This document shows positions 30,700 to 46,626 of a stretch of DNA of 64,000 nucleotides, piece after piece (within the stretch, counting starts at the first letter, position 1; each line of letters starts with the position of its first letter). Source of the DNA: Flavisolibacter ginsengisoli DSM 18119 (lineage in GTDB: Bacteria; Bacteroidota; Bacteroidia; Chitinophagales; Chitinophagaceae); assembly GCF_900129295.1 (NCBI RefSeq), contig NZ_FQUU01000002.1, positions 134,488 through 198,487 of the forward strand, written 5' to 3'. The position numbers and the translations under genes were made by a program. A model generated the notes under the pieces. It made no database searches. It was not told the origin of the DNA and was given only the letters and a program-made list of their open reading frames with translations.

Positions 30700-31431
30700 T
30701 TATGCTATGATCCTAAACTCTTTGGGCTGAGGGGCTTTGGAACGGATATGACGGCGTAATTGCCATACCTGCTTTACATCTTCCAATTTCAGGGGTACTT
30801 GCGGGTATTGCTCATCGTTATCAGAGATCAGTACCCATTCAACAGGTGATTTTTTATAAATACGTTTTACCAGGAGTTTATCAGAAGTATGAATAATATA
30901 AACGCTGAAATTTTTCACATCAGCCCAATCTTCAGGATGAACCATTGTAGCCAGGATCACATCTCCTGCACTTAATGTAGGCTCCATACTATCCCCATCT
31001 ACTTCAAAGTACCGCCAGATGGCCCCCAACGAATTAACACCCGGAGGCAATGAATACTTTTCTAAAGTATCCATATAATCTACCTGTTCATATGCTTTCA
31101 CATAACCTGCCTGGGCTTTAATGCCTACAAGAGGAACAAGTTGAGAAACAGGATCATTCTTATGTTCCCGCCTGCTTTCCAGGTAAGTATGCCTTAATTC
31201 GGAATGAAAATGTGAAGGCATTCCCAATATATTCACATCTTGTGAATTTTTAGTCAGGGGATTATCTTGTAAAAACCGCTGAACCTTTTTCCATGTTGGC
31301 TTTTTCATCTCCACTTTGCCATTTTCAATTTTGCTCACTAATTCCCTGCTCATATTGGCCTTACGCGCAAAATCTGTTTGATTGAGCCCGTATAATTGCC
31401 TGATATCCATTAAGTTATAGCTATTTTCCAT
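30700..31431 (-). CDS. Phage-type repressor: XRE helix-turn-helix with S24 autopeptidase
   Basis: A 243-residue regulator. Residues about 7-55 form an XRE helix-turn-helix (LNQTDFARKANMSRELVSKI). Residues about 98-220 are a LexA/CI-type S24 domain with Ser148 (DGDSMEPTL), Lys189 (LLVKRIYK) and a probable Ala108-Gly109 self-cleavage site (KAQAGYV). It is divergent from the recombinase cluster, across a region with four TTGTGAATA half-sites. The design implies derepression of the cluster on DNA damage. Confidence 0.85.
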   Translation of the reverse strand: MENSYNLMDIRQLYGLNQTDFARKANMSRELVSKIENGKVEMKKPTWKKVQRFLQDNPLTKNSQDVNILGMPSHFHSELRHTYLESRREHKNDPVSQLVPLVGIKAQAGYVKAYEQVDYMDTLEKYSLPPGVNSLGAIWRYFEVDGDSMEPTLSAGDVILATMVHPEDWADVKNFSVYIIHTSDKLLVKRIYKKSPVEWVLISDNDEQYPQVPLKLEDVKQVWQLRRHIRSKAPQPKEFRIIA

Positions 31432-31443
31432 AATGTTAACCTA

Positions 31444-31527
31444 TTGTGAATATAATTGTGAATAATGTGTGGATATTATACTAATTCGTATCTTTATTAT
31501 TCACAAATTTAACTCAAATAATCACAA
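31444..31527. promoter_or_regulatory. Operator cluster between repressor and recombinase genes
   Basis: Four related half-sites lie in the divergent gap: TTGTGAATA at 31444, TTGTGAATAAT at 31456-31466, and the inverted copies ATTATTCACAA at 31496-31506 and ATAATCACAA at 31518-31527. The first pair starts 12 bases apart and the inverted pair 22 bases apart. TATCTTTA (31489-31496), one base off the -7 consensus, overlaps the third site, so bound repressor would block the rightward promoter. Confidence 0.75.
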
Positions 31528-31536
31528 TTCCAAATT

Positions 31537-31839
31537 ATGAGGAAGACAAAAAAAGAATTTGCTTTCCACTTCCCATTAAAGCATAAAGTGGTTCGTGAAC
31601 TGAAAATTGTAACTGAACATATTGGGGACCTGGAAATTGAGGGAGTTGGGTATTTTAATTCCAATGCCTCCTTACTTGACATTTTTGACAGGTTTGACGT
31701 GGATATAGATTTTGTTAAGTGGAATGGAACTGATATAAAACCTGTTTTGGAAGTAACAGGTGCCATGGATGAGATCACCGAAGCAGCCATAAGGTACTTT
31801 GCTCAAACATTTGAGAACGGATTTAAGAAAGCTGCCTAA
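31537..31839 (+). CDS. Hypothetical protein in phage-derived early cluster
   Basis: A 100-residue, charged, soluble protein with no recognised domain (MRKTKKEFAFHFPLKHKVV, DIFDRFDVDIDFVKWNGTDI). It is the first gene to the right of the operators, so it should be under the S24 repressor. The start codon lies 10 bases after the last half-site, giving a very short leader. Confidence 0.6.
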   Translation: MRKTKKEFAFHFPLKHKVVRELKIVTEHIGDLEIEGVGYFNSNASLLDIFDRFDVDIDFVKWNGTDIKPVLEVTGAMDEITEAAIRYFAQTFENGFKKAA

Positions 31840-31884
31840 CTCCAGGTCAATTCAATTATTAAAGCAAGAACAATCAGCAATATC

Positions 31885-32745
31885 ATGCAACTAAGAAAAG
31901 CAACAAGAAAAAAAGCAAAGATCCGCCTGGGACTGTCGGCAGTATCAGGAGGAGGTAAAACATATAGCGCTATACTCATTGCAAAAGGACTTTGTGGCGA
32001 TCTTTCCAAGGTAGCCATTATAGACACAGAAAATGGAAGTGCCGACCTCTATGCTCACCTTGGAGACTACAATGTTTTGAGCCTGGCACCACCATTTTCA
32101 CCAGAACGGTACATTGAGGCTATCCGTTCATGCGAAAAGGAAGGTATGGAAGTGATCATTATCGACTCTATATCGCAGGAATGGGATGGCAAAGGGGGTT
32201 GTTTGGAAATTGTAGAAAGCCTTGGTGGTAAATACCAGGACTGGGCTAAGGTTACACCTCGTCACCAGGCCTTCCTGGAATCTATCCTTCATAGCCCTTC
32301 TCACATCATAACTACAGTCCGTCGCAAACAGGACTATGAAATGATAAAAGATGGGAATAAGGTTAAGATTGAAAAAGCCGGACTTCGCGAGATCACAAGG
32401 GAAGGATTTGAATACGAATTGACTATTAATCTTGAAATGGATATTCAACACAATGCTTCCGCATCAAAGGACCGCACTAATCTTTTCATGGGAAAACCAT
32501 CGTTTGTACCAACAGAAGAAACCGGAAGATTGATTGCCAGCTGGTGCGAACAAGGCGAAGAAGATTTCACAGTGTTACGTCCGGGTAACGAATGGTATAA
32601 TAAGGTTGACACCTGCAGTTCTCAACGCGAACTGGTGGACCTGTACCAAAAGAATAAGCCGGAAGTGGATGCAAATCCATTATTGCAACAATTAATAGCT
32701 AACCGTAGAAACCAGATCAATGGAAAAACACTTAACGCAGCCTAA
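31885..32745 (+). CDS. Sak4-like phage recombinase ATPase
   Basis: A 286-residue RecA-fold ATPase. Walker A is GLSAVSGGGKTYS (about 17-28, with Lys25 and Thr26), Walker B VIIIDSIS (about 88-95). The pattern LGLSAVSGGGKTYSA and the later ITTVRRKQDYEM match Sak4-type single-strand annealing/recombination ATPases of phages. It lacks the DNA-binding loops of full RecA. With the repressor next door it forms the core of a phage early region. It overlaps the next gene by 26 bases. Confidence 0.75.
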   Translation: MQLRKATRKKAKIRLGLSAVSGGGKTYSAILIAKGLCGDLSKVAIIDTENGSADLYAHLGDYNVLSLAPPFSPERYIEAIRSCEKEGMEVIIIDSISQEWDGKGGCLEIVESLGGKYQDWAKVTPRHQAFLESILHSPSHIITTVRRKQDYEMIKDGNKVKIEKAGLREITREGFEYELTINLEMDIQHNASASKDRTNLFMGKPSFVPTEETGRLIASWCEQGEEDFTVLRPGNEWYNKVDTCSSQRELVDLYQKNKPEVDANPLLQQLIANRRNQINGKTLNAA

Positions 32746-33205
32746 CCAATCTACTCTTCCTTCTATCCGTGAAGGATTAACAAAGAAAGAGATTGAATTG
32801 TTGGCCCGGCAATCGGTGGCCACCCTTCTTGAAGAAGGAAATGTATTCCAGGTAGCAGAGGCCCTGGCTGCAATGGAAGAATTTGCTAAGACTGTAAGAA
32901 AGAATGAAGATTATATAGAATTTTTAAGAGAAGAATTATCCAAGAACAATGGCAGGTTATCTACTCCTTCGGGAGCAAGGATCGAAATCTGTGAAGCAGG
33001 CATTAGTTATGACTATTCGCAAAATGCAGAATGGAATCAGATCAATGAACAGGTGAATTATTGGCAGGCAAGAAAAAAACAGTTGGAAGAAAAACTGCGC
33101 AGAATAGCACCCGGTAAAATAACTGTTGACCCCGAAACCGGGGAAGTAATGGAAGGCGTTAATAAAACTTCCCGGTCAACTTATCGTATCACATTGGCAA
33201 GGTAA
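32720..33205 (+). CDS. Hypothetical phage-like protein
   Basis: A 161-residue, mostly helical protein with a coiled-coil-like stretch (about 105-125, INEQVNYWQARKKQLEEKL) and a conserved-looking tail, KITVDPETGEVMEGVNK. The last pattern is typical of small phage early proteins that sit next to Sak4. No domain name can be given with confidence. The overlap with the ATPase gene indicates coupled translation. Confidence 0.6.
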   Translation: MEKHLTQPNQSTLPSIREGLTKKEIELLARQSVATLLEEGNVFQVAEALAAMEEFAKTVRKNEDYIEFLREELSKNNGRLSTPSGARIEICEAGISYDYSQNAEWNQINEQVNYWQARKKQLEEKLRRIAPGKITVDPETGEVMEGVNKTSRSTYRITLAR

Positions 33206-33226
33206 GCAAGACATTCCTGCCGCAAA

Positions 33227-33517
33227 ATGATCGTTATGACAAAATCAATTTTAAACGAATGCGTTGAAATAATCAAGGACCTGGTTGGTAATGATTACCT
33301 GTATTTCAACAATGCAGTGGAAGTGAAAACCACTCCTCATAGTTTTCCTTTCAATGCCTGGGCTGTGTGTGTAAGTCCTAAGAATGAATTGTACGTAATG
33401 GATAGCGACGAGCAATGGCATAAAACCGAATTAAATGACTCTAGTGCAGCATTGGTTATCGGAAGCCTGTACCAGCGCCTGAAACTGATGCGTGTTAGCT
33501 ATGCCAAAGCGAGCTGA
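33227..33517 (+). CDS. Hypothetical small protein
   Basis: A 96-residue soluble protein (start MIVMTKS; MTKS at 33236 is an alternative start). AWAVCVSPKNELYVMDSDEQWH resembles a small beta sheet domain. Not recognised. It is co-directional in the phage-derived cluster, 21 bases past the previous gene. Confidence 0.55.
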   Translation: MIVMTKSILNECVEIIKDLVGNDYLYFNNAVEVKTTPHSFPFNAWAVCVSPKNELYVMDSDEQWHKTELNDSSAALVIGSLYQRLKLMRVSYAKAS

Positions 33518-33559
33518 GAATACTTTCAAGAATTATTAAATGTTTAACCAGTAAGGACC

Positions 33560-34195
33560 ATGAAGTACAGTACAAATGCACTGACTTTACAGGAAAAGGT
33601 AAAAGAAGAACTGCCCAAAGCTACCCAAAGAACTAAGAAGCAATTCGTGCATTCCCTGGAATATGAATTAATAGCAGGTCTGGCATTACAGCAATATATA
33701 AAGGATGAAGAGGCAGATTTTCAACTACTATTATCTATTCCTCTTTCAGAAAGAATCCCAGGCTTTATCAGGGAATATGGGCTTAAGAGAATTCACCAGT
33801 TAATAAAATTGTTGGTAAAAGAGTTTTATTCTACTCCCCCGCTGCATAAGATTAAGAAACCCAATGAAACAAAGCTAGCCTTTTGTGCATGTGAGATCAT
33901 GCTGGCAGCTATGGAAGACCAGTTAAGTATTGAGGACCTCATCATTTTCCTGGAATTAACTCAAAAAGGAAAATATGGAAGTTTTAAAGGTATTGTGCCT
34001 CATTCAATAGTGACTGAAAAACTTGAAGATTACCGCCAGGAACGTTTTGAGGCCTATATATCACTAAAAGGTCAAATGCACCAGCACCAAAAGAACCTGG
34101 GGCCCTCCGAAAGAATCAATGGTGGTCCTGTTTCCATGCAGCAGCTTCTTAATGAGCAGGACTGGTCAATTATCCCTTTAAAGAAGATCAGCTAG
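33560..34195 (+). CDS. Hypothetical helical protein, end of phage-derived cluster
   Basis: A 211-residue helix-rich protein. FIREYGLKRIHQLIKLLVKEF and LAFCACEIMLAAMEDQLSIEDLIIFLEL resemble phage-encoded helical proteins involved in DNA processing, but no family can be assigned. The C-terminus (NGGPVSMQQLLNEQDW) is polar. It is the last gene before tRNA-Asp, 81 bases away. No structural, lysis or packaging genes follow, so this is not a complete prophage. Confidence 0.55.
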   Translation: MKYSTNALTLQEKVKEELPKATQRTKKQFVHSLEYELIAGLALQQYIKDEEADFQLLLSIPLSERIPGFIREYGLKRIHQLIKLLVKEFYSTPPLHKIKKPNETKLAFCACEIMLAAMEDQLSIEDLIIFLELTQKGKYGSFKGIVPHSIVTEKLEDYRQERFEAYISLKGQMHQHQKNLGPSERINGGPVSMQQLLNEQDWSIIPLKKIS

Positions 34196-34276: not shown

Positions 34277-34350
34277 GGATCGGTAGTTCAGTTGGTTAGA
34301 ATGCCGCCCTGTCACGGCGGAGGTCGCGGGTTCGAGTCCCGTCCGGTCCG
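34277..34350 (+). tRNA. tRNA-Asp (GTC)
   Basis: A complete cloverleaf: acceptor GGATCGG (34277-34283) with CCGGTCC (34343-34349), D arm, anticodon stem CCGCC/GGCGG with loop CTGTCAC (anticodon GTC, 34311-34313), T arm GCGGG-TTCGAGT-CCCGT, discriminator G at 34350. The terminal CCA is not encoded. Its 3' end is repeated at 45085-45110. Confidence 0.97.
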
Positions 34351-34358
34351 CAAAAAGG
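34333..34358 (+). other. Left attachment repeat (attL) in the tRNA-Asp 3' end
   Basis: Bases 34337-34358, TCCCGTCCGGTCCGCAAAAA plus GG, are identical to 45089-45110; extended to 34333 the match is 25 of 26. tRNA 3' ends are the classic integration sites of tyrosine-recombinase islands. The repeat keeps the tRNA intact on this side, as expected for attL. Confidence 0.8.
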
Positions 34359-34391
34359 GACAAATCATCACAAGTATGGTTTGTCCCTTTT
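34353..34391 (+). terminator. Terminator after tRNA-Asp, probably brought by the island
   Basis: AAAAGGGACAAA (34353-34364) pairs perfectly with TTTGTCCCTTTT (34380-34391). The left arm begins inside the attachment repeat. A different terminator follows the distal repeat at 45127-45160, so the tRNA seems to have exchanged its old terminator for this one on integration. Confidence 0.8.
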
Positions 34392-34587
34392 GCATTTCTG
34401 CTGATCCTAGCTCAAGCCAGCACGAGTTGAAAATGAAAATTACTTTAGGTTCGGGACGAGCTTTTCTTGATTTGCCATCAGGATAAATAATCACGATGGT
34501 CACATGACTTTGAAAAACGTCGGGGCTAATACTTTATTCAACGCATTAGTGGAAGAACAAATCAAAACACAACTTGCCTTTACTGCC

Positions 34588-35322
34588 TCACCCAACAGCG
34601 TTGTGTGGCGATGTTCCCTTGCGGTAGTCAGATGGAGAGATGCCCACTTGTTTTTTGAAAAACTTTCTAAACGAATATTGATCGGGAAAGCTGAGTTCAT
34701 TGGCCACTGCTGCACGGATAAGTCCGGGTCATGCAGCAACGCTTGCGCTTGTACCGCCACCACTGCATCTATCCACTCACAGGTCGAGCGGCCTGTTACG
34801 TCTTTCACATTCTAAGACCGGTATTTGGGTGTCACAAAAAGTTTATCCGCATAAAACCGCACGCCGTGCTATTGCCTGAAAAGCTGGAACAAAAGCTCGT
34901 GAATTTGATATTCAGTTCCTCTTTGCGGCTCATTTTTTTTGAACCTGTTGAAAATGCTTTTGATAGGCAGCTTCGAAATCATACAGCAATGCCATCATCA
35001 GGTTTCCGGTGATTTCTTTGCGGAAGGGATGGCCTGCTTCGCGGAACTGCTGCCAGATGTACACAAACTGCGCCTGCAACTGTTCGGCTTCTGCCTGGCG
35101 CAGATGCACCACCGGTATGGCCCCTGCCGAGCAAAACTGGAACCTGTCCAGCACGTGCGGGTTGATGTAATTAGCCTTGAGAAAACGCCGGGAGAAAACA
35201 ATAAAACGGCACCGGAAATTTTTGCTCGTTTCCAGCACCTTAAGCACCGGGTATGGCGTGGTAATGATCATGGAATGAATGCCGCCTTCATAAACTGCCA
35301 GGTTAATTTCCATCTTAATCAT
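34588..35322 (-). pseudogene. AraC-family transcriptional regulator, broken
   Basis: The N-terminal sensing domain is intact in one frame (MEINLAVYEGGIHSMIITTP, then VIFSRRFLKANYINPHVL-like text). It breaks at an A8 run (plus-strand 34933-34940). The helix-turn-helix half continues in another frame (YADKLFVTPKY, VKDVTGRSTCEWIDA) with in-frame stops at 34869-34871 and 34812-34814. A further one-base shift near 34706 leads to VANELSFPDQYSFRKFF and SPSDYRK. Two frameshifts and two stops make it a clear pseudogene. Its N-terminus abuts the DJ-1 remnant. Confidence 0.8.
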
Positions 35323-35342
35323 TCCCTGCGTGCAGATCCCGA

Positions 35343-35468
35343 TCAGGTAGCCACGCCTTTGTCTGCCAGAGAATAATAATGTGCTGCAAATTCTTCTACC
35401 CAAAAACCGGTCTTTTTGCCGGTGTTGTCCAACTCGCTATGGGATGTTAGTACAAATAATACTTTCAT
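35343..35468 (-). pseudogene. DJ-1/PfpI-family gene, N-terminal fragment
   Basis: The first 41 codons read MKVLFVLTSHSELDNTGKKT and GFWVEEFAAHYYSLADKG, the standard start of Bacteroidota DJ-1/PfpI glutamine amidotransferase-like proteins of about 220 residues. The frame then stops and the sequence runs into the AraC remnant. A deletion probably removed the rest of this gene together with the start of the regulator. Confidence 0.75.
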
Positions 35469-35527
35469 GATCTTGTTTTATCAGTGAATAATAAATAAAG
35501 TTGAAGTAGATTTTTGTTTGGTTGGTA

Positions 35528-36526
35528 TCAAGCCTCCACAATCATCTTACCGGTATTGTCCCCTTTGAACAAGCCCAGTAATGCCTTCGGTAAATTTTGA
35601 AAACCATGTTCAATGGTTTCGGTTCCTTTTAATTTGCCTTCTTTCACCCACTGGGCCAGGTGTTTTATGCCTTCCGGAAACCGGTCTTTGAAATCACCCA
35701 CGATAAAACCCTGCATCAACACACTCCGGGTGAGTAACATTGGCTGCAACCTTGGCCCCATGGGTGTTTCTGTAGTGTTGTATAAAGAGATTTGACCGCA
35801 CAAGGGGATCCTTGCATGAAAATTTATGTTCTTAATAACCGCATCTGAAATTTCTCCTCCCACATTATCAAAATAAATATCAACTCCTTTTGGACAAGCC
35901 GCTGCAATAGCTTTGTTCATATCGGGAGTAGTTTTGTAATTGATGGCCTCATCAAATCCAAATTCCGATTTCAGCAACTTCACTTTCTCGTCTGAGCCGG
36001 CAATTCCCACCACATAGCATCCCTGTATTTTGGCGATCTGTCCAACCACGATACCGACTGCTCCGGCGGCTCCGGAAACTACAACCGTTTCCCCGGCCTT
36101 TGGCTTACCAATATGTATTAATCCGAAATAAGCCGTTAATCCGGTCATGCCCAGCACGCCGAGGTAATAGCTGGGAGGAGCCAGACTGGTATCGATCTTT
36201 CTTGCTTCTTTTTCAGTTGCGATAAAGTCTTTTTGCCAGGGAAAATTGCCCACCACCATATCACCGGGTCTAAAGTGCTCCGAAAGACTTTCCATTACTT
36301 TTCCTATAACGCCGCCATAGATAGGTTTGTCAATTTCAAAAGGTGGAGCATAAGATTTTGCGTCGTTCATCCGGCCGCGCATGTAGGGGTCAACTGAATA
36401 ATACAGACCCTTCAGTAATATCTCCCCAGGCTTTATTACCGGAAGTTCAACTTGCATCATTCGAAAGTCATCACTGACCGGTAAACCTTTTGGTCTGGAT
36501 GCCAATACAATTTGTTCAGTTGTCAT
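35528..36526 (-). CDS. NADPH-dependent zinc-free oxidoreductase (MDR, CurA-like)
   Basis: A 332-residue enzyme of the medium-chain reductase superfamily, leukotriene B4 dehydrogenase/CurA group. ATG 36526 (MTTEQIVLASRPKGLP) is the family start; the longer frame to 36583 adds 19 residues. VDPYMRGRM, the GMTGLTAYFGL motif, the nucleotide loop VSGAAGAVG and the FDNVGGE motif are present; zinc ligands are absent. It probably reduces alkenals or enones with NADPH. With the broken AraC and DJ-1 genes it may have formed an electrophile-response unit. Confidence 0.88.
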   Translation of the reverse strand: MTTEQIVLASRPKGLPVSDDFRMMQVELPVIKPGEILLKGLYYSVDPYMRGRMNDAKSYAPPFEIDKPIYGGVIGKVMESLSEHFRPGDMVVGNFPWQKDFIATEKEARKIDTSLAPPSYYLGVLGMTGLTAYFGLIHIGKPKAGETVVVSGAAGAVGIVVGQIAKIQGCYVVGIAGSDEKVKLLKSEFGFDEAINYKTTPDMNKAIAAACPKGVDIYFDNVGGEISDAVIKNINFHARIPLCGQISLYNTTETPMGPRLQPMLLTRSVLMQGFIVGDFKDRFPEGIKHLAQWVKEGKLKGTETIEHGFQNLPKALLGLFKGDNTGKMIVEA

Positions 36527-36583
36527 TTTTTTAGATTTAGTGTGGTAAACAATTCGGGTAATCAGCCGGGGATACTGGTACAT

Positions 36584-36975
36584 AAATTTCGGCTAATTGT
36601 TTGTCAGTTATATATAATGAAAGCAGTTATTTGTCAGATGTTTGAAATAGTTATAAACTAAATAACAGCGTTTTGGAAAAATAGTTGAACGAAGAAGTGA
36701 TCCGTTGGAAAGTTTTAGACGGGGTAGATTTCTCCTTGCTACCTGAGTTTGGCCGAAACGCGTGGTAGCACAATAATAATGGGTGACCTTATGATATACT
36801 ATAAGGTAATAATGCCTATCATTTTAAAAAAAATCAATGGCAATATTGAAATTTGAAACTATATTTTTAATAATAGAAAATAATAAAGCAGTATTTATTG
36901 TTTAGTCTTGCTCTCCTATGTCTTTGAAATGACATGCATCCAACACTAAGTTTTCTTTTTATATTCTATTTCATT
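36584..36975. other. Intergenic gap, one small hairpin
   Basis: No gene was seen in about 390 AT-rich bases. ACCTTAT (36786-36792) and ATAAGGT (36801-36807) form a 7-base stem without a T-run. No remnant of an integrase was recognised. Confidence 0.4.
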
Positions 36976-37701
36976 TCACATCAACCTAAGAAAAGTCCAG
37001 TAGACACCTATGAAAGCAATCAGCATTGAAATAGGGTAAACAACACCCTTTTTATACCATATCTTATTGCAAAGAGGAAAAATAATGAGCAAATAAACAA
37101 ATAGAATAACAAGTATTTGCCCAATTTCTACACCCGCATTAAATGAAATAATTGATGTGAAAAATTTATTGCGTGGCAGCCCTATTTCATTTAAAGCTGC
37201 CGCAAACCCCAATCCATGGATTAGCCCAAACAGAAAAACAATCAATATACGCCAAACCTTTAGCTCACTTATTAGAATATTTTCAACTGCTACAAACACA
37301 ATTGAAAGGGCAATTAATGGTTCAACAATATCTGAAGGAAGTGTAACAATGCTCTTCATGCTTAGTGCCAGTGTTATGGAATGCGCTACTGTAAAAGCGG
37401 TTGCCTGCCAAAGAATTGTTTTAAGTTTATTATTTAAAAGACAGAGCGCAATGACAAATAAGATGTGATCAATACCCATTGGTACTATATGGGCAATACC
37501 TAGTTTCAAATAAAACAAAACAACATCATGTGTGGGGGCCTTTTCCAGTGCCAAATTCACTGTATGAGCAAACACAAGATATGGTGCAGATAATACAATA
37601 CTAAGTAGTATACAATATCTTATCAGTGAGGACTGTATAATTAGCTTGAAAGATTTTATTTGATTTCGATTTCTGATGTGATAATTATTTATTGCCCTCA
37701 T
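36976..37701 (-). CDS. HupE/UreJ-like membrane protein
   Basis: A 241-residue protein from ATG 37701 with a signal-like first helix and about six more. The HupE/UreJ pattern is clear: LGIAHIVPMGIDHILFVIAL, FTVAHSITLALS and FGLIHGLGFAAAL place conserved His and Asp residues in the membrane. The family is linked to nickel or cobalt uptake, but no nickel enzyme is nearby. It follows a decayed outer-membrane gene by ten bases. Confidence 0.82.
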   Translation of the reverse strand: MRAINNYHIRNRNQIKSFKLIIQSSLIRYCILLSIVLSAPYLVFAHTVNLALEKAPTHDVVLFYLKLGIAHIVPMGIDHILFVIALCLLNNKLKTILWQATAFTVAHSITLALSMKSIVTLPSDIVEPLIALSIVFVAVENILISELKVWRILIVFLFGLIHGLGFAAALNEIGLPRNKFFTSIISFNAGVEIGQILVILFVYLLIIFPLCNKIWYKKGVVYPISMLIAFIGVYWTFLRLM

Positions 37702-37711
37702 ATTCTTGCTA

Positions 37712-38389
37712 TTAGAAGAAAACAGCCAGTTTGATCCGTGCATAAAAAGGTGCGGGTGAAAATTTAACTCTGTTCAAATGCTGTCTCATTTATCAATCGC
37801 GAAGTGGTACCAAATTGAGCTTTATTCCTGGTTGTATTCAATATATTTTCCATTGTATTGGCCTGCTTCATATTTTGGTTGGGTGTAATTAATAGCACCG
37901 GCATGAATGTAATATCCTTTTGCAACGATGGGATTATCCTCATTAGCGCTCTGGTCATGAATATACTGGCAGGAAGTGCATACCATCCTGTTTTTGCTTG
38001 GTAATTTAATCCACCCACCCAAGTTATTGCAGTGCTTGAGGAATAAAATCTTGCCCTTTTGCCACATTTATGATCCAGGATTTAATTAAATTCAATTTGC
38101 ATTAATCAATTTAGAGCTTATAATTATTTTGTTTGGAGGCTGAATTGCAATCAGTTTATCAACATAATCAAACTGCAGGTTGTCAGCACGAATGCCAGCA
38201 TTATCCCGCTATTTGAACTTTGAAATTGTTGTTGAGCAAAAACAGAAACCATTCAACTCCTTGATTTAACCCTAGTTGATAGTCCCAAAGATCTCTTGTT
38301 GCCTTGAATGTTCAAGGCGGCTATCTCAATTCCATCATATCTCATACCCGTTCCATAAAGTAATAAAATATGATAACTGTGGCCGATGT
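37712..38389 (-). pseudogene. Decayed gene, probably an outer-membrane beta-barrel protein
   Basis: Several minus-strand frames read like pieces of one protein. A 5' piece (GHSYHILLLYGTGMRYDGIE, IAALNIQGNKRSLGLSTR) ends in a stop. Later pieces read VAKGYYIHAGAINYTQPKYE and KAQFGTTSRLINETAF. A final piece ends FSPAPFYARIKLAVFF just before TAA at 37714-37712, with the terminal Phe typical of outer-membrane barrels. At least two frame changes separate them. It lies between the TPR gene and the HupE-like gene, all on one strand. Confidence 0.5.
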
Positions 38390-39730
38390 TTACTGCATTT
38401 TAAGCGCCTCTATTGCTTCCTTCTTTAACAGTGGATCCAGGTTGGGATTATTTTGTAAACCTTGTTTTAAGAAATTTGCAGATTTGACACGATCACCTGC
38501 TTTAGCATAAATAATCCCGGCACGAAGCAATAAAACAGGATTTCTGCAATTGGTCCGTAATGCAGTGGATAAAAAAGATAAAGCGTTTTGAATATCCCCA
38601 TTTTTATAGTACGCCCAGGCCACCGCTTCGTTGACATCAATATTATCTGGCCGTCGGCTATATTCTTTCATTGCATGTTCAATTGCTTTTGCTGGTTCGT
38701 TTTTTAATAAATAAACATAAGCCAGCTCTTTATCTGCATGATGATTGACGCTTGCCTGACCTTCTTTTGCCCCCAGGTTTAATTGTTCAATTATGGCATT
38801 GATCATGTACTTGGCCTTACCCGGCTGCGAAGTCAAGCTGTATAGCTCGGCAAGTTGCTCTTTTAATGCAATATCATTCAAAGTAGAGTCAGCAGATTCA
38901 TAATACCTGATTGCTTTAACATAATTCTTTGATGCCATAGCTATATGACCTAAACCAGCAATTGCATATCCATATCCCGGACGTTCATTCAATGCAATAT
39001 CATATTGCATTTCAGCGCTTCTTATCTCACCAGTATTTTCATACAACCGTGCTAACTGAATACGACTCCATTCTGTTCCTTCATCTCCATATCCTCCCGC
39101 TTCCACAGCCATCTTCATAGCTTCTATTGCACCTGGGTTATCTCCATGAATTTCACGTAAATAAGAAACCCTGGCATAAGATCGTATGTCGGGCCTGATT
39201 GACATCATCTTATCAGAATATTCAACAGCAGCAGGGTAATTACCCATCTCCACATTGCCATCCACCATGATGCCATAAACATAAGCGTTGTAGGGATTAA
39301 TTTTTTGTGCCTGACTTGCAGTTTCCAAAGCATCGCTGAAATGATGTTGTGAAAGCTGCAGTATGGCTTTTAGGACCAATGCCTGGAAGTTTCGTGGATC
39401 CATAGTCAGGACATCACCAATATATTTTGTAGCGGCACCATCATAATAAGTATAGTTGCCTGTTACCCTTGCTTCCTGGATGTAAAGTGCTGCCAGTGCC
39501 AGTGTTGATTTAATATCAGTTGGTGTTTCCCTCACAATGCGTATGAGCTTATCACCATTGGTTTTTGTAGTTGCCCATTCCGGAAGCAATGCAGCGCTAC
39601 CTTTTCTTTCCTGTAAAGGATAAAAGGCAACTTCATTATCTTTTAATCTTAAATGATACCTAATGACAATAAAAGACGTCATCCCGCCAAAAAATAAAAG
39701 CAATAAAATATAGGTAAACTTTTTATGCAT
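38390..39730 (-). CDS. Membrane-anchored TPR protein
   Basis: A 446-residue protein with an N-terminal membrane helix (about 6-25) and about nine TPR-like repeats from residue 70 to the end (for example AYVYGIMVDGNVEMGNYPAA, AVAWAYYKNGDIQNALSFLS). It should be a periplasmic scaffold. It follows two DUF4331 genes on the same strand, a pairing that suggests a shared process, though a terminator lies between them. Confidence 0.8.
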   Translation of the reverse strand: MHKKFTYILLLLFFGGMTSFIVIRYHLRLKDNEVAFYPLQERKGSAALLPEWATTKTNGDKLIRIVRETPTDIKSTLALAALYIQEARVTGNYTYYDGAATKYIGDVLTMDPRNFQALVLKAILQLSQHHFSDALETASQAQKINPYNAYVYGIMVDGNVEMGNYPAAVEYSDKMMSIRPDIRSYARVSYLREIHGDNPGAIEAMKMAVEAGGYGDEGTEWSRIQLARLYENTGEIRSAEMQYDIALNERPGYGYAIAGLGHIAMASKNYVKAIRYYESADSTLNDIALKEQLAELYSLTSQPGKAKYMINAIIEQLNLGAKEGQASVNHHADKELAYVYLLKNEPAKAIEHAMKEYSRRPDNIDVNEAVAWAYYKNGDIQNALSFLSTALRTNCRNPVLLLRAGIIYAKAGDRVKSANFLKQGLQNNPNLDPLLKKEAIEALKMQ

Positions 39731-39803
39731 AAGAAGATTTTTAAGATTCGATTATCCGCGGTTGTATAAGGTTTGCTTGAAATGATCTGTCAATTAAAAA
39801 AAG

Positions 39804-39834
39804 AATAAGGCCCGTTATTTCTAACGGACCTATT
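39804..39834 (-). terminator. Intrinsic terminator after the DUF4331 genes
   Basis: AATAAGGCCCGTTA (39804-39817) and TAACGGACCTATT (39822-39834) form a stem with one bulge and one mismatch, and on the minus strand it is followed by a T-rich run. It lies 12 bases past the second DUF4331 stop. Confidence 0.75.
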
Positions 39835-39845
39835 CGTTTTAATTC

Positions 39846-41906
39846 CTAATGTTTAATGACACGGATGGATTCCTTAACCTGTCCATTACTGATGGCTTTT
39901 ACAAAATAGACGCCTTTAGACAACTCGTGAGAATCGAATATGGCACTATAGGTTCCGGTTTCCTGATGCTGGTTAACCAGGGTTTTCACAAGGTTCCCTG
40001 CAGCATCATAAACCTGTATGATCACATTTGATGGAGTTTCCAACCGGTAACGAATGGAAGTGCTATTGGTAAAAGGGTTAGGCGATGACGCCATGAATAC
40101 CTCTGGAGTGGCCAGGCGCATCACACTGCTGGGTTCCAGTACTTGCGGTTGTTCATATCCGGTAGGTAGCCCTGCGCAATTACAGGTGCCCGGCCAGGGC
40201 GTTTGCTCATAAGGAAATGAAGCCATCAATGTAGTATCATTTTTTTCTACTCCTGTGGAATAATTCAATACCATTCCCAGTCTTGTTGGTTCTTCATATG
40301 GCAAACCAATTGCTGCCAGCACCACACCGCTTACAGCCTGTAATTCAATACGTGTAACATCATCCTCCAGTCTTCTGCCATTAGGAAATCCATCCATATT
40401 AGGTATGAATTCCAATTTGGTGTTGGTGTTAAACCTGGCATCAGTTAAACCCAATACCGCTGCAGCAAGTAAACCTTCTGAACTGAAATCGGGGCTATTT
40501 CTTGGCGTTGGCGGAACTGCCATATTCAATCGCAGCATATCACCTCCATTGGGTAAGAAATTGTTGATAAATGGTTTCCCTTCAGCCAGGGGGTTTCCGT
40601 TTTTCCCTGTAGCTAACTGGTAGGGCCGGATATTGGGCACTCCCAGCCGGAATATGGGATAAAGGTCAACAGAACGTGGTTTTTTAGGCCCAGGCAGTAA
40701 TACACTTCCAAAAGCTGCTTCATCGAAGGCTGTTCCTGAAACGGCTGCGGAGTGGCGTAAAGAAAAAAGCCCGTTCTTGCCATTTCTGAAATCAAATTTT
40801 CCCAGCGAATTCGTTTGAATTCGCAACGGAGATAAAGCAGGTACAGCCGTTCCAAACTGGCTGTCATCCATATAGAGGGCTAACTCGGGATTGTAAAGGT
40901 TATCATCAAAGACCTCGTTCTTACTGAATTTACCATCATTCAAACTTGCCTCCTGGTAAGGAGTCAAAGAATTCCACAGATCTTTTTCTCCTATTGGATT
41001 TACCACTTCGTTAGTAAGTGGCATTCCCAACCTTGACACCTGCACCCATGCTCCCTGGTAATTTTCCGTTCCATTTGTATTGAGTGTTCTGATCTTTCGC
41101 CTGCTGGCGGAAGCCCAAACACCAATTACAAAATTCGGATCCAGGATAGAGGAAGCTTTGTCAACAGATTTATGGTCTTTTTGCAAGGTCGAGATATCAA
41201 TCTGCAAGGCAATGGTGGATACATTTTTGCATTTCAATCCGTCTGCTGACTTTCCACCTGCAGTCCGGGGAATATCACCCAGGTCAAATGCGCCTGCCAG
41301 GTCTACAAAGAAGGGATCATCTACAGGGCCGCAAAATACTTTCTCTCCCGAACTTGCGGTCATGATGGCCTTGTTCATCAGGCTATTGTAATCAGGCGCA
41401 TTCAGGCCTACAGGGCTACTTATAGAGCGGGGGCCAATATTGGGTGGCGGAACGATTCCATTGCTTACTATGGTTTGAAAATTTACCCCTCCATCCATAC
41501 TTCTTTCAACAGTATAGGTTGTTTTAAGATTCTCCTTACCCAACCTGATATCAAAAAAAGTTGAGGGATCTTCATTGGTCCTTTGGAAACTGAAACGATA
41601 CACAATATCATCTCCGGATGAATAAGTGTTATTGCCGGCATTGTTATCAATATGTATCTCGTAGCGCACATTATCACTAAAATGATAGTAATAAGGCCCA
41701 CCCTGTGGCAACTGGAATGGTATGTAATTGGCCAGGATAGTGATCCTTTCCGGGTTGTCAGGGCTTCTGAAGGCGTATAGGTCTGTATTATCAGCAGTCG
41801 GATCACCCAGGAGCAGGGGTGCCTCGCGATGACTGGATGACATCAAAATTGCTGCAATACTAAAAACGCCTGCAAGCAATAATGAACTAAGTATCTTTCT
41901 TTTCAT
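39846..41906 (-). CDS. DUF4331 protein with type IX secretion tail
   Basis: A 686-residue exported protein. SSHREAPLLLGDPTADNTDL directly after the signal peptide is the DUF4331 hallmark; the domain spans about 28-600 with GPVDDPFFVDLAGAFDLGD and DDVTRIELQAVSGVVLAAIG. Residues about 610-686 (SSPNPFTNSTSIRYRLETPS and VKTLVNQHQETGTYSAIFDS, ending VIKH) are a type IX sorting domain. It should be secreted to the surface. It is 60% or so similar by eye to the gene upstream, 21 bases away, so the pair is a tandem duplication. Function unknown. Confidence 0.88.
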   Translation of the reverse strand: MKRKILSSLLLAGVFSIAAILMSSSHREAPLLLGDPTADNTDLYAFRSPDNPERITILANYIPFQLPQGGPYYYHFSDNVRYEIHIDNNAGNNTYSSGDDIVYRFSFQRTNEDPSTFFDIRLGKENLKTTYTVERSMDGGVNFQTIVSNGIVPPPNIGPRSISSPVGLNAPDYNSLMNKAIMTASSGEKVFCGPVDDPFFVDLAGAFDLGDIPRTAGGKSADGLKCKNVSTIALQIDISTLQKDHKSVDKASSILDPNFVIGVWASASRRKIRTLNTNGTENYQGAWVQVSRLGMPLTNEVVNPIGEKDLWNSLTPYQEASLNDGKFSKNEVFDDNLYNPELALYMDDSQFGTAVPALSPLRIQTNSLGKFDFRNGKNGLFSLRHSAAVSGTAFDEAAFGSVLLPGPKKPRSVDLYPIFRLGVPNIRPYQLATGKNGNPLAEGKPFINNFLPNGGDMLRLNMAVPPTPRNSPDFSSEGLLAAAVLGLTDARFNTNTKLEFIPNMDGFPNGRRLEDDVTRIELQAVSGVVLAAIGLPYEEPTRLGMVLNYSTGVEKNDTTLMASFPYEQTPWPGTCNCAGLPTGYEQPQVLEPSSVMRLATPEVFMASSPNPFTNSTSIRYRLETPSNVIIQVYDAAGNLVKTLVNQHQETGTYSAIFDSHELSKGVYFVKAISNGQVKESIRVIKH

Positions 41907-41927
41907 AATTAATTTCTTAATAGATTA

Positions 41928-43709
41928 TTATTGATTGGTTACCACTGTACCTCTCCATGGAGCTTGTACATAAGGGAATGCATTCTGGAAAGAAGTATCG
42001 TTCTTTTCCACTCCGGTTGAATACTGTAGTGTATTCACTAAACGGTTAGTAACAGGTGATTGGGATGTATTTGCAGGATTGTAATCATCGTACCATAAAC
42101 CTATTGCTGCTAATACCACACCTCCTACTGTTTGCAATTCAATTCTTGTAACATCATCCTCCAATCTTCTTCCATTGGGGAAGCCATCCATATTGGGAAT
42201 AAATTCCAAATTTGTATTGGTGTTAAACCTTGGATCGGTTAATCCAAGAACAGCTGCCTGCACCAATCCCTCAGAACTAAAATCAGGGCTATTTCTTGGA
42301 GTAGGCGGAACAGCCATATTCAACCTGATCATATCACCACCATTGGGAAGAAAATTATTAATGAATGGCTTTCCAGCAGCTAATGGGTTGCCTTTCTTAC
42401 CTGTGGCCAACTGGTAGGGACGAAGGTTGGGCACTCCCGTATGAAATATAGGCCAGATATCAACAGAACGTGGCTTACCGGGACCAGGCAGTAACAATGT
42501 TCCTGCAATGGCATCATCCAGAGCAGTGCCCGAAACAGCAGATGTTCCTTTTAGTGGATACAAACCCATCATAGTGTTTCTAAAGTCAAACGTGTGCAAA
42601 GAATTGCTCTGAACTCTTAATGCCCTGAAGGCAGGTACGGCACCACCAAACTTGCTGTCATCCATATAGAGAGCCAGTTCAGGATTATAATAGTTATTTC
42701 CAAATGTGCTTATATAGGCCAGGTCCTGGTAAGGTGTGAGGTGATTCCAAAGATCTTTAACCCCCACATTGCTCAGCACTTCGTTATTCAAGGGCATAGC
42801 TACTCGCGATACCTGCACCCAATTGCCTTCTTCAACAGAAGTACCTCCATTGGTTGGATTAAATGGCGAACCACCATTCGGAGTCCTAAGAGTTTTAGTT
42901 GCCTGCCTGCTTGCTGAAGCCCATACGCCGATTACAAAATCTCCATCGAGGATGTTGGCAGCCTGGTTCACATTTTTATGATCTTTTTGCAAAGTAGAGA
43001 TGTCAATCTGCAAGGCAATTGTGTGAACGTTATATCGGGCCAGTCCATCTCTTGAACCTGTTGTTTGACGTGGCAAATCGCCAAGATCAAAAGCGCCAGC
43101 AACATCTACAAAAAAAGGATCATCTACAGGCCCGGCAAAAACAGTTTCTCCTGTACTGGCCATTGTAATGGCATTATGCATTAATACATTATAATTACTG
43201 TTTAGACCAACGGGAGATTCAATACTTCTTGGTCCTATGTTATTTGGTGGAACAATTCCATTGGTAACAATAGTTTCAAAAGCCGCACCTCCATTTATAC
43301 TGCGCTCAAGTGTATAAGTGGTTTTTTGATTCTGCTTACCCAGCCTGATATTAAAAAATGTTGTGGGATCCTCGTTGGTGTTTTGAAATGTGAAACGGTA
43401 AATAATGTCATCGCCTGTGGTTGCTATGTTATTATCTATATGAATTTCATAGCGGATATTTGTTCCAAAATTGTAATAATTAGGGCCACCTTGTGGTAAT
43501 TCAAGTGGTATATAATCTGCGATGATGTTCACCTTTTCAGGCTTGTCCGGGCTGCGGAAAACATAGAGGTCCGTATTGTCCGCCAGTGGATCGTCTGCAA
43601 TTAATGGCGCCTCCCGGTGGCTGGAAGACATAAGTACGAAGGTAATAATGGCCCCTAATGGTAGCAACAGGTACCAAAGCCTTCCTTTCCTGGTAAAACT
43701 TTTCTGCAT
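41928..43709 (-). CDS. DUF4331 protein without sorting tail
   Basis: A 593-residue exported protein with an N-terminal membrane/signal helix and the same SSHREAPLIADDPLADNTDL motif and domain as its neighbour. It ends soon after the DUF4331 domain (RGTVVTNQ) and lacks the type IX tail, so the two copies probably end up in different compartments. It is the first gene of the pair. Confidence 0.88.
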   Translation of the reverse strand: MQKSFTRKGRLWYLLLPLGAIITFVLMSSSHREAPLIADDPLADNTDLYVFRSPDKPEKVNIIADYIPLELPQGGPNYYNFGTNIRYEIHIDNNIATTGDDIIYRFTFQNTNEDPTTFFNIRLGKQNQKTTYTLERSINGGAAFETIVTNGIVPPNNIGPRSIESPVGLNSNYNVLMHNAITMASTGETVFAGPVDDPFFVDVAGAFDLGDLPRQTTGSRDGLARYNVHTIALQIDISTLQKDHKNVNQAANILDGDFVIGVWASASRQATKTLRTPNGGSPFNPTNGGTSVEEGNWVQVSRVAMPLNNEVLSNVGVKDLWNHLTPYQDLAYISTFGNNYYNPELALYMDDSKFGGAVPAFRALRVQSNSLHTFDFRNTMMGLYPLKGTSAVSGTALDDAIAGTLLLPGPGKPRSVDIWPIFHTGVPNLRPYQLATGKKGNPLAAGKPFINNFLPNGGDMIRLNMAVPPTPRNSPDFSSEGLVQAAVLGLTDPRFNTNTNLEFIPNMDGFPNGRRLEDDVTRIELQTVGGVVLAAIGLWYDDYNPANTSQSPVTNRLVNTLQYSTGVEKNDTSFQNAFPYVQAPWRGTVVTNQ

Positions 43710-43916
43710 GGTTAAATTTTTTTTAAATGAAAAATTGGCTCTACAGGATAGAAGATTTGATTACTGGATAACCGAAGCTTGCTTACAAAGGGGTGATTAA
43801 GGTCTTTACAGACGTTATGAATACAATAAAGGCCTATTGTTGATATACGGCTTTAGATATAATTTGGATTTCTAAAAAAGAAAAATAAAAAAAGAATAAC
43901 TACTTCATGATTACAA

Positions 43917-44735
43917 TTAACGGTGATATTGAAGCATCCATTCATAAATATTCATCCCATCGCTTTTGAAGGATGGATCGAGTGCCCTGGTCCAGGCATC
44001 ATGCCCTCCGGTAGGCCAAAGAGTTAATTTGGGCATTACTGTTGGGTGAAATGATGCTATCGAAGCAATGAAACCCTTAGCATAAGAAACGTTGATGGTT
44101 TGATCATCTTCTGAATGGAATGCCCATAATGGAAGATTTCCCTCAGCTATTCTTTTACATTTATCTGAAATGGCATAATCTGCAGGTATCCCAGCCATCG
44201 GAATTATAGCAGCTATATTATTTGTATTGGTGGCGGCAAAATTGCAAATAGCCTCACTCCCGCTACTTAATCCGGAAAGATAGATTCTGCTACTGTCAAC
44301 CCTGTATGTTTGTTTGGCAAATTCAATACAGGCAGCTATGTCTGCATTTCCTGCAAAGGATCTTGTTTGAGGCATGAGAATAATAAAGGAATAATCATTT
44401 TCATGAACCTTAAAGACTCCGGGTAAACGCTTTTCGTCCAACAGCTGCGCCGGGCCATCATTCAGAAGCAATGGAAGATCAAGCGATCCATTTCCAAACT
44501 GACCAGCACCATGAAGGAATACCAATAATGGATAGGATGAATGAGTTTGCTTATAATTAGATGGTATAGCTATATAATAACCACCAATATTACCCGTAAT
44601 TGTATGAGTTACCGGCTGTAAAACGGATGTTATATCCAAAGCTTCCTTAATGACAGGATTAGCATTTGGTTGGTCCTGCCTGGGCTTTTTACAACTGGTC
44701 GATAAAATTGAAATCAAAATTATGATGCACAGCAT
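43917..44735 (-). CDS. Alpha/beta hydrolase lipoprotein (PHB-depolymerase-like esterase)
   Basis: A 272-residue protein from ATG 44735, whose lipobox ends LSTSC at about residue 15; the longer frame to 44777 hides the signal. The hydrolase shows LLVFLHGAGQFG (oxyanion region), GLSSGSEA (nucleophile Ser), HSEDDQTI (Asp) and GGHDAW (His), as in feruloyl esterase or PHB depolymerase-like proteins. The substrate is unknown. It is the last gene before the distal attachment repeat. Confidence 0.8.
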   Translation of the reverse strand: MLCIIILISILSTSCKKPRQDQPNANPVIKEALDITSVLQPVTHTITGNIGGYYIAIPSNYKQTHSSYPLLVFLHGAGQFGNGSLDLPLLLNDGPAQLLDEKRLPGVFKVHENDYSFIILMPQTRSFAGNADIAACIEFAKQTYRVDSSRIYLSGLSSGSEAICNFAATNTNNIAAIIPMAGIPADYAISDKCKRIAEGNLPLWAFHSEDDQTINVSYAKGFIASIASFHPTVMPKLTLWPTGGHDAWTRALDPSFKSDGMNIYEWMLQYHR

Positions 44736-45084
44736 TTTCAAACTTTTGAAACTGCATGCAAAATAAAAATTGATCAAGGCTATTATTTAAAATGGTAATT
44801 AAAACAGTTCTCTGAAACTGGTTTGGCTTGTTCCTGGCTTTAAAGCAACAAAATATATGCCCCTTGCTGTACATTAATTTTGTTTATAGAGTTATATTAA
44901 ATATTGAAATTATATTGAACAAAATGCAAAGAGAAATAAAAAAGAGTGCAATAAAGACCCTTGTATACCCCATATTGAGTAATAAAATAATATTCCGTAA
45001 CTAGTTTTCACCCAATGGATGAAAGGAAGGAACTATGGAAGTGAAGTCAAAGGATAGGGGAAGTCGAGGAGATGGAACATAGAA

Positions 45085-45110
45085 CGACTCCCGTCCGGTC
45101 CGCAAAAAGG
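45085..45110 (+). other. Right attachment repeat (attR): orphan tRNA-Asp 3' end
   Basis: TCCCGTCCGGTCCGCAAAAA plus GG (45089-45110) is identical to the tRNA-Asp 3' end at 34337-34358; extended to 45085 it is 25 of 26. No D arm, anticodon arm or acceptor 5' strand precedes it, so it is only the tail of a tRNA, as expected for the distal end of an island integrated in that gene. Confidence 0.8.
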
Positions 45111-45126
45111 CAAAACAAAAAAGATT

Positions 45127-45160
45127 AAAGCCGCTTAAAATACATGTTTTAAGCGACTTT
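45127..45160. terminator. Terminator, probably the original one of tRNA-Asp
   Basis: AAAGCCGCTTAAAA (45127-45140) pairs with TTTTAAGCGACTTT (45147-45160) with one mismatch, followed by TTT. It lies 16 bases past the attachment repeat, as a tRNA terminator would have before integration. Confidence 0.75.
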
Positions 45161-45504
45161 TTTCATTTCAGCTACTCAATAAACTTAGGCAGCCCTGAAG
45201 CTGCCTTGTCACTGCTTAATGGAATAATTGCTTAGGATTAAACTTGTTTTAAAAAACCTTTGTTACTGGCCATAGAAGCTCATAAATTGTCCTTTTACTC
45301 TACTTCCAAAGACAATTGATAACCCCTCCTAGAGTTTTTAGAGAAGTCCGCACATCCTTCAATAATTCTTTCATTTGCCTCCAGCAAAACAATAGTAGAT
45401 ATTCGCTTCTTATCCTTCCTAACGTTCATGCTATTGTTACAGGGGTTCATATTGAAAATTATAGGCAAGCCGGGTTTTTGTATTATATTAAACAAATAAG
45501 ATTT

Positions 45505-46626
45505 ATGCAGGAAAAAGAATTTCCATTGTATGCAAAGGTTACGATCATCCTGTTTGGACTCGTGCTAGCCACCTACATCTTAAAAAACCTTGGCGATATT
45601 CTCACGCCTTTAGCCTTCGCTATTATCATCGCCATCTTGCTGAATCCACTGGTCAATAAATTGGGCACTTTCAAGCTTGGAAAAATTCCCTCCATTCTTA
45701 TCGCCATGCTTTTAACCATTTTGGTTATGACGGGGATATTTTATTTTTTATCCTCTCAAATAATGGGTTTTGGGGAGAATCTCCCGGCCCTGAAAGCAAA
45801 ATTCAGCAGCCTGTTGGCAAGCCTTCAAAGCTGGCTGCAACTAAAATTTGGTTTCTCCATCCAGAAACAAATGCAAATGATCAACGAAGCGGCCAACAGC
45901 AGCAAGGCACTTATAGGTGGCACCCTGAATACCGTTATTGGTACCTTGGGCGTGCTGTTACTCTTGCCGGTGTATGTGTTTCTTTTTCTGTACTACAAAA
46001 TCCTGATATTGAATTTTCTGTTCAGGGTCTTTGCCAGTGAAAATGCAGGTAAAGTATCCGAGATATTGGGGCAAACAAAACTCGCCATTCAAAGCTACAT
46101 GGTAGGTTTGCTGCTGGAGGCAGCCATTGTTGCAGCACTCAACTCTACGGCCTTGCTTATCATAGGTGTAAAGTATGCCTTATTGTTTGGCGTGATGGGC
46201 GCCATCCTGAACATGCTTCCGTACATCGGTGGCATCATTGCCATCGCCCTTCCTGTCTTGATGGCAACTATCACCAGCGAAGGATTTTCAAAACAATTAT
46301 GGATCATAGTTGCATATCTCATTATCCAGTTTATAGATAATAATTTCCTGGTACCTCGTATTGTTTCCTCTAAAGTCAAGATCAACGCCCTGATCTCTAT
46401 CCTCGCTGTCTTGCTTGGCGGTGCATTATGGGGAGTAGCTGGCATGTTCCTTTCCATTCCTTTTGTAGGCATATTAAAAATCATCTTCGACCGGGTAGAT
46501 GGCCTGCAGCCCTGGGGCGAATTGCTGGGCGATGTAGTACCCACTAATTATAAAAGATTTGCCTACAGGAAAAATAAAAAACCTTCCCTGGCTGAGAAAG
46601 TAATAAGAAAGTCAACAGAAAAATGA
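45505..46626 (+). CDS. AI-2E family transporter (PerM-like)
   Basis: A 373-residue membrane protein with about eight helices; ATG 45505 (MQEKEFPLYAKV) matches the family start, while the frame open from 45316 adds 63 residues unlike it. LATYILKNLGDILTPLAFAI, GVLLLLPVYVFLFLYYK and the C-terminal GGALWGVAGMFLSIPFVGIL are typical. The family exports or exchanges small molecules; AI-2 itself is shown in few members. Confidence 0.87.
   Translation: MQEKEFPLYAKVTIILFGLVLATYILKNLGDILTPLAFAIIIAILLNPLVNKLGTFKLGKIPSILIAMLLTILVMTGIFYFLSSQIMGFGENLPALKAKFSSLLASLQSWLQLKFGFSIQKQMQMINEAANSSKALIGGTLNTVIGTLGVLLLLPVYVFLFLYYKILILNFLFRVFASENAGKVSEILGQTKLAIQSYMVGLLLEAAIVAALNSTALLIIGVKYALLFGVMGAILNMLPYIGGIIAIALPVLMATITSEGFSKQLWIIVAYLIIQFIDNNFLVPRIVSSKVKINALISILAVLLGGALWGVAGMFLSIPFVGILKIIFDRVDGLQPWGELLGDVVPTNYKRFAYRKNKKPSLAEKVIRKSTEK

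Follow-up and report, generated by a model that had tools for sequence, protein, structure and literature searches.

Does a tRNA 3' end that recurs some distance away mark the borders of a mobile element? The question is raised by a locus of Flavisolibacter ginsengisoli DSM 18119 (genome 4.68 Mb, in 55 contigs), where an intact tRNA-Asp gene and a copy of its 3' end enclose a block of about 10.7 kb. An earlier note on this DNA had read the block as a genomic island integrated by a tyrosine recombinase. The window analyzed here is the whole stretch of 64,000 nucleotides around the locus and all positions refer to it. The numbers with G and L are our labels for genomes and loci, respectively. 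The features of the locus are listed in Table 1.

Table 1. Coordinates of the features at the tRNA-Asp locus, from the left flank to the right flank.
Feature	Position	Strand	Basis
Left flank: S24 repressor (-) and five + strand genes, including an AAA_24 ATPase	30700..34195	mixed	Pfam
Intact tRNA-Asp (gtc)	34277..34351	+	ARAGORN; Rfam RF00005
Left repeat copy, 26 nt, tRNA 3' end and 7 nt, att-like	34333..34358	+	sequence comparison
Terminator-like hairpin after the tRNA	34353..34391	+	inverted repeat I3; RNA fold z -6.85, 0/200 shuffles as good
AraC-family regulator pseudogene, with stops and frameshifts	34615..35352	-	residues 49-295 of the G014 protein
DJ-1/PfpI gene, first 39 codons, remnant fused by a deletion to the AraC remnant	35352..35468	-	comparison with G014
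NADP-type oxidoreductase (ADH_N_2, ADH_zinc_N)	35528..36583	-	Pfam PF16884, PF00107
HupE/UreJ-type membrane protein	36976..37743	-	PF13795
TPR protein	38390..39730	-	Pfam
DUF4331 protein with C-terminal sorting domain (Por_Secre_tail)	39846..41906	-	PF14224, PF18962
Second DUF4331 protein	41928..43709	-	PF14224
Esterase-like protein	43917..44777	-	abhydrolase matches below Pfam cut-offs (PF02230, PF20434)
Right repeat copy, no tRNA body before it	45085..45110	+	sequence comparison
Terminator-like hairpin after the right copy	45132..45155	+	RNA fold z -3.32
Right flank: AI-2E family transporter gene, start codon uncertain	45316..46626	+	PF01594

The direct repeat of the tRNA-Asp 3' end

The two copies of the repeat lie on the same strand, with a spacing of 10,752 nt from start to start. 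The exact repeat reported in the earlier note was confirmed: 22 nt (34337-34358 and 45089-45110), made up of the last 15 bases of tRNA-Asp and the next 7. The agreement is 25 of 26 positions over 34333-34358 and 45085-45110, and 28 of 31 over 34333-34363 and 45085-45115. The repeat begins in the T-loop and extends 7 nt beyond the tRNA end, and such bounds would be expected of a tyrosine-recombinase core. When the tRNA with its flank was compared with the segment, the longest exact match was 22, and shuffled sequences (n = 300, blocks of 3 nt) gave maxima of 8-16, with 9 or 10 in 242 shuffles and 16 in one.

The tRNA-Asp completed by the left copy, likewise as first described, is the sole complete copy found by searches of the host genome. 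A genome search with 34320-34420 as query (E ≤ 0.001) located the tRNA-Asp 3' end nowhere else than at these two places, the third match being the left hairpin paired with its own reverse complement; the 26-mer is thus not a repeat scattered through the genome, as the earlier note had allowed for. At the right copy ARAGORN finds no tRNA, and the alignment of the 60 nt before 45089 with the tRNA body is at chance level (a score equalled by 794 of 2000 shuffles), in agreement with the earlier description of a copy without a body. An intact tRNA at one boundary and a direct repeat of its 3' end at the other, two features by which islands are recognized, are both present.

Each copy is followed by a terminator-like hairpin, and we infer that one of the two should be the original terminator of the tRNA. 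A similarity 3' of tRNA-Asp with G022 was considered as an element end and rejected, as it looks like a similar terminator.

Gene content of the segment

The left 2 kb of the segment is a decayed, foreign-looking block. Its counterpart in G014 comprises the AraC gene, divergent genes that include HlyD-like and outer-membrane efflux genes, the DJ-1/PfpI gene and an 85% homologue of the oxidoreductase. Compared with this block, ∼4.6 kb is missing in the window, where DJ-1 codon 39 is joined to AraC residue 49. The open reading frame 34930-35403, absent from the gene list of the earlier note, is part of the broken AraC-type gene. The oxidoreductase was found in 2 of 18 genus genomes and in 3 of 38 relatives, host included (E ≤ 1e-40). 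The GC content of 34400-36600 is 0.450, above that of every background window (mean 0.397), and in tetranucleotide composition 9 of 255 background windows are as distant.

The right part is occupied by HupE, TPR, two DUF4331 and esterase-like genes. The names given in the earlier note were supported by Pfam for HupE, both DUF4331 proteins, TPR and the oxidoreductase, while "esterase-like" rests on matches below the Pfam cut-offs. The order HupE-TPR-DUF4331-DUF4331-esterase is identical in G002, where the esterase homologue adjoins DUF4331, and no tRNA-Val repeat was found around that block. DUF4331 and TPR occur with HupE in G001, G003 and G005, and without it in the G013 stretch. From all five stretches with these genes (G001, G002, G003, G005, G013) tRNA-Asp is absent; in G013 a decayed tRNA-Asp-like sequence lies ∼7 kb from the DUF4331 and TPR genes, and in G005 tRNA-Asp lies 47-49 kb from the HupE-TPR-DUF4331 genes on the same contig. 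Over most of its length, DUF4331 is present in 6 of 18 genus genomes, elsewhere than at tRNA-Asp, and shorter pieces occur in two more (G004, G009). In the DUF4331 tree the paralogues of the host and G002 pair with full support. In the TPR tree the host row falls in no supported group, and therefore the HupE-TPR-DUF4331 block gives no clean transfer signal. A literature search on DUF4331 found nothing.

Near the HupE-TPR-DUF4331 genes there are urease subunit genes in G005 (L037:7464-15744) and a cation-efflux gene in G001 (L034:11123-16309); there is a hint of a metal-related role of the HupE block (36976-43709). In both G002 (L032:17962-19017) and the window (45316-46626) an AI-2E-like gene follows the esterase-like gene. 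The two AI-2E-like genes share 25% identity and differ in orientation, and the common neighborhood is probably a coincidence.

Integrase, composition and empty site

No integrase was found in the segment by Pfam search. A tblastn search with three integrases detected no relic of one there either; apart from the XerD-like gene (7301-8197), its matches were due to chance. In the host genome there are five matches to PF00589, of which one is this XerD-like gene and none lies in the segment, and a single match (29%) to the tRNA-linked integrase family described below. The tetranucleotide composition of the whole segment is ordinary, as 13 of 30 background windows are at least as distant.

The earlier note had proposed that relatives should show an empty site, with tRNA-Asp followed directly by the sequence before the AI-2E gene. 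No such site was found in the stretches examined, and divergence and rearrangement among the congeners are too great for one to be recognizable. The AI-2E gene is absent from the 20 stretches fetched around tRNA-Asp matches, and a match to it is present in 17 of 18 genus genomes. The surroundings of its three closest homologues (79-81%; G006, G010 and G012), the only ones examined in this way, are unlike the window and contain no tRNA; those of G010 and G012 agree with each other. For either flank there was no DNA match beyond the repeat itself in the relatives' loci compared. Four genus genomes (G002, G008, G011, G017) gave no tRNA-Asp match and are uninformative for an empty site. The opposite outcome that the earlier note had named, relatives sharing the whole region in the same order, was seen in no examined relative.

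At tRNA-Asp, the flanks were also compared for conservation upstream and variation downstream. In the group of the window, L012, L018 and L022, 6 of 6 pairs match upstream and 0 of 6 downstream; in the group of L014, L020 and L021, the counts are 3 of 3 and 0 of 3. We regard this as weak support, because an upstream match was what defined the groups, the first group does not include the inverted copies of G006 (L016), and all 16 flank sets together give 10 upstream against 6 downstream pairs.

Flanks and rearrangement of the locus

The left flank contains six genes: the S24 repressor, the AAA_24 ATPase, which matches PHROG 1366 (function unknown), and four without a Pfam match. Of the 24 named loci, 13 (L054-L066) keep this gene order, in one case with a gene that is only partial; at least four of the 13 are the same contigs as other relatives' loci examined. 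This phage-like module is common to several Chitinophagaceae genera (also L012, L016, L018, L022 and L030), and part of the modules end next to tRNA-Asp. In G000, G003 and G014 tRNA-Asp follows the end of the module directly, and in G009 it follows after 2.2 kb; the G001 contig breaks off within the tRNA-Asp after the module, and the module of G006 has next to it two tRNA-Asp copies that are oriented the opposite way. A flipped tRNA-Asp relative to conserved neighbors was observed in G006 (L016:8366-11971 versus L012, L018 and L022), and also in G015 and G016 (L024, L025) versus G005, G010 and G012 (L014, L020, L021).

Beyond the repressor, G003, G006, G009 and G014 carry a gene that we take to be accA-like and that has weak similarity to the window's carboxylase. 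The host homologue is on contig 38, so the host locus is rearranged on its left side too, and more than one event therefore shaped it.

tRNA-linked integrases in the genus

The start of an intact integrase gene lies 247 nt after tRNA-Asp in G004. Two further cases are in G005: on contig 56 tRNA-Asp is closely followed by a broken relative, and on contig 47 a tRNA-Asp 3' fragment without a body is followed by an intact one. The integrases of G004 and of contig 47 of G005, the two on which Pfam was run, contain PF17293, PF13102 and PF00589. By association, tRNA-Asp is an integration site in the genus.

The integrase family has matches at 31 other places, 12 of which were fetched. Just upstream and on the same strand, 10 of the 12 have a tRNA (Ser, Arg, Asn, Pro or Lys); the two without one are L089 and host contig 13 (L093). 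A right-hand repeat was detected in one of the seven integrase loci tested, a 49-nt tRNA 3' copy ∼19 kb on from the tRNA-Asn of G016; the stretches examined for the other six, some of them cut off by the end of the contig, showed none. Since tyrosine integrases adjoin tRNA-Asp or its 3' fragment in the genus, and their relatives adjoin other tRNAs, an island origin of the segment is plausible. Literature searches found nothing on tRNA-Asp islands with an integrase in Bacteroidetes, and only off-topic items on genomic islands of Flavisolibacter.

GIY-YIG cassettes behind tRNA genes

The host genome has 11 matches to PF01541, and six of them lie behind a tRNA of the same strand: two in tandem behind tRNA-Met (L134/L136), two in tandem behind tRNA-Val (L135/L137) and one each behind tRNA-Pro (L132) and tRNA-Ser (L139). 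Cassettes of relatives, likewise just behind same-strand tRNAs, are found at L020, L027, L142, L150, L158, L170, L172, L173, L178, L179, L184, L186 and L187. Across host and relatives, many cassettes terminate in a tRNA 3' copy with a hairpin, and several form tandem arrays. After the stop codon of the cassette, a copy of the tRNA 3' end follows with 21-22 of 22 bases for Pro, where ARAGORN calls the tail a tRNA-Pro, with 22/22 and 20/22 for the two Met genes and with 18/22 for Ser. For Val a straight comparison gives 11/22, because a hairpin-forming stretch, as read by eye, replaces the T-loop.

At least 64 distinct GIY-YIG frames shorter than 250 aa were present in the loci examined, among the matches listed. 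This set is no full census: it comprises the host matches, the top match from every relative and the majority of the small genus matches listed; each array member counts as one frame, and the presence of tRNA-Asp is the reason for including L020 and L027. Among the same matches, a tRNA of the same strand ends within 1.1 kb upstream of the stop in 31 of the 64 frames, is lacking in 27, and six have too little upstream sequence; some of the 27 are array members with tRNA-like tails whose tRNA lies beyond the contig or stretch. As a background, 20,000 points were drawn at random in 300 kb of the host genome, and 38 of them had such a tRNA; the comparison is rough, since those 300 kb hold one tRNA. 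The units of the tandem arrays measure 351 nt (G010), 430 nt (G012) and 420 nt (G015), and the tails of the arrays shown have, by eye, a short perfect hairpin in a tRNA arm or replacing it. Decayed tRNA copies with such a hairpin were also observed next to or behind real tRNAs at L020:10640-10760 (-), near 7768 in L027, near 9827 in L029 and near 18515 in L035, and in L172, L173, L179 and L186.

The cassettes resemble tiny mobile genes associated with tRNAs and are possibly of an undescribed kind; to our knowledge, no such arrangement of GIY-YIG genes and tRNAs has been described. The arrangement did not appear in the titles and abstract openings returned by a literature search on GIY-YIG genes at bacterial tRNAs. 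The homing endonuclease SegB of phages, as an amplifier of anti-defence loci, is the subject of PMC13096335. We consider the cassettes to matter more than the island itself, as many small GIY-YIG genes stand directly behind tRNAs in the family and several end in tRNA copies, so that tRNA 3' repeats have a second possible source. No GIY-YIG trace precedes the fragment at 45085, and the cassettes therefore stay an observation beside the main finding.

Origin of the segment

Four sources of the right copy were weighed. Chance can practically be dismissed: 22 bases are identical where none of the 300 shuffles exceeded 16, and the two copies share a strand, correspond to the end of a tRNA tail and are the only two places found in the genome. 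The main rival is that the right copy is what is left of a second tRNA-Asp whose 5' part was deleted or rearranged away, with a segment that was never a mobile island. It takes this rank because in five relatives (G006, G018, G019, G020 and G022) one contig carries two equally oriented tRNA-Asp matches at a distance of 3.5-28 kb, and the decayed tRNA-Asp copies of G010 and G013 and the rearrangement on the left side of the locus fit it as well. However, not a residue of a tRNA body is left before the copy, yet its tail is intact in 22 of 22 bases, and the boundary falls in the T-loop as it does in att sites. We hold this explanation to be doubtful, though worth keeping in mind.

The right copy may also have been the tail of a former GIY-YIG cassette behind tRNA-Asp, the 10 kb having arrived later by other means. 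Cassettes that end in a tRNA 3' copy do occur in the host, behind tRNA-Met and tRNA-Pro and, less exactly, behind tRNA-Ser and tRNA-Val, and in G010 and G020 there are cassettes behind tRNA-Asp itself. Such units are, however, 0.35-0.43 kb long in arrays and ∼0.5 kb in the tRNA-Met pair of the host, against 10.7 kb here; the best profile score before 45085 is 1.8 bits (i-Evalue 0.1), which is no coding trace, and the 5' strand of the T-arm and the hairpin of other cassette tails are absent at the right copy. This makes a cassette origin unlikely. In its wider form, the tRNA 3' duplications of this lineage would have two makers, tyrosine integrases and GIY-YIG cassettes, and 45085-45110 would be a cassette tail that seeded a 10 kb patchwork, which we think very unlikely.

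Most likely, the 10.7 kb block of metabolic genes between the intact tRNA-Asp and the copy of its tail is the decaying remnant of an ordinary integrated island that has lost its integrase. That one or more elements were integrated by site-specific recombination at the 3' end of the single tRNA-Asp gene, and that the segment is what remains of them, is the account we favor with moderate confidence. Observed are the repeat, a hairpin after each copy, the decay, a distribution that seems patchy and the integrases beside tRNA-Asp in congeners, and from these we infer the integration event and the loss of the integrase. The element or elements would have entered the tRNA-Asp 3' end site-specifically, with incoming DNA that brought its own copy of the tRNA tail. 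The tRNA would still be whole on the left because of this copy, and the displaced tail would now be found at 45085-45110. After a later loss of the integrase the segment would have decayed, as in the AraC pseudogene and the 4.6 kb deletion relative to the G014 block. The outcome would be an immobile patchwork of two parts, the foreign-looking block with the oxidoreductase to the left and the HupE-TPR-DUF4331-esterase block to the right. The repeat with its hairpins, the decayed state and the mixed gene content seem, on balance, to be explained with the fewest assumptions by an island followed by integrase loss and decay.

The tyrosine-recombinase island of the earlier note is therefore upheld in its anatomy and by the congener integrases at tRNA-Asp, and weakened by the missing integrase, the lack of an empty site in the stretches examined and the ordinary overall composition. 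The narrow distribution of the oxidoreductase and the deviating composition of 34400-36600 also speak for an island; the HupE-esterase block at other places in relatives, the rearranged left flank and the right-hand repeat in one of seven integrase loci speak against it. The segment is probably an integrase-less island remnant, which is less than proof. As no integrase was found, it is called a remnant on the strength of its anatomy and is not filed as an integrative element. Taken as such, a tRNA-bounded block without an integrase is ordinary, and the main use of the locus is the caution that a tRNA 3' repeat alone is no proof of a mobile element.

Comparison with known systems

According to PMC5704250, tyrosine-recombinase elements have repeats of 8-60 bp, a range that includes the repeat at tRNA-Asp, and tRNA 3' ends are among their usual targets; elements of this type at tRNA 3' ends of Bacteroidetes named there are NBU1, NBU2, Tn6031 and MTnPi4. 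Like these four, the segment has an intact tRNA at one end, a short tRNA 3' repeat at the other and cargo in between. Unlike them, it has no integrase and, as annotated, no mobilization genes, its decay is visible and it would not be expected to be mobile. The right copy resembles the tRNA gene fragments of PMC9897764, which attributes partial tRNA copies to the integration of horizontally transferred DNA; that work draws mainly on 20 archaeal genomes. The integrase loci of congeners (G004, G005 and the tRNA-Asn of G016) share the genus and the kind of target with the segment, and two of these genomes, G004 and G005, also share the tRNA. Those loci carry an integrase with PF17293, PF13102 and PF00589 (by Pfam in the two searched), whereas the segment carries none. 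The locus is probably an island remnant of a known kind.
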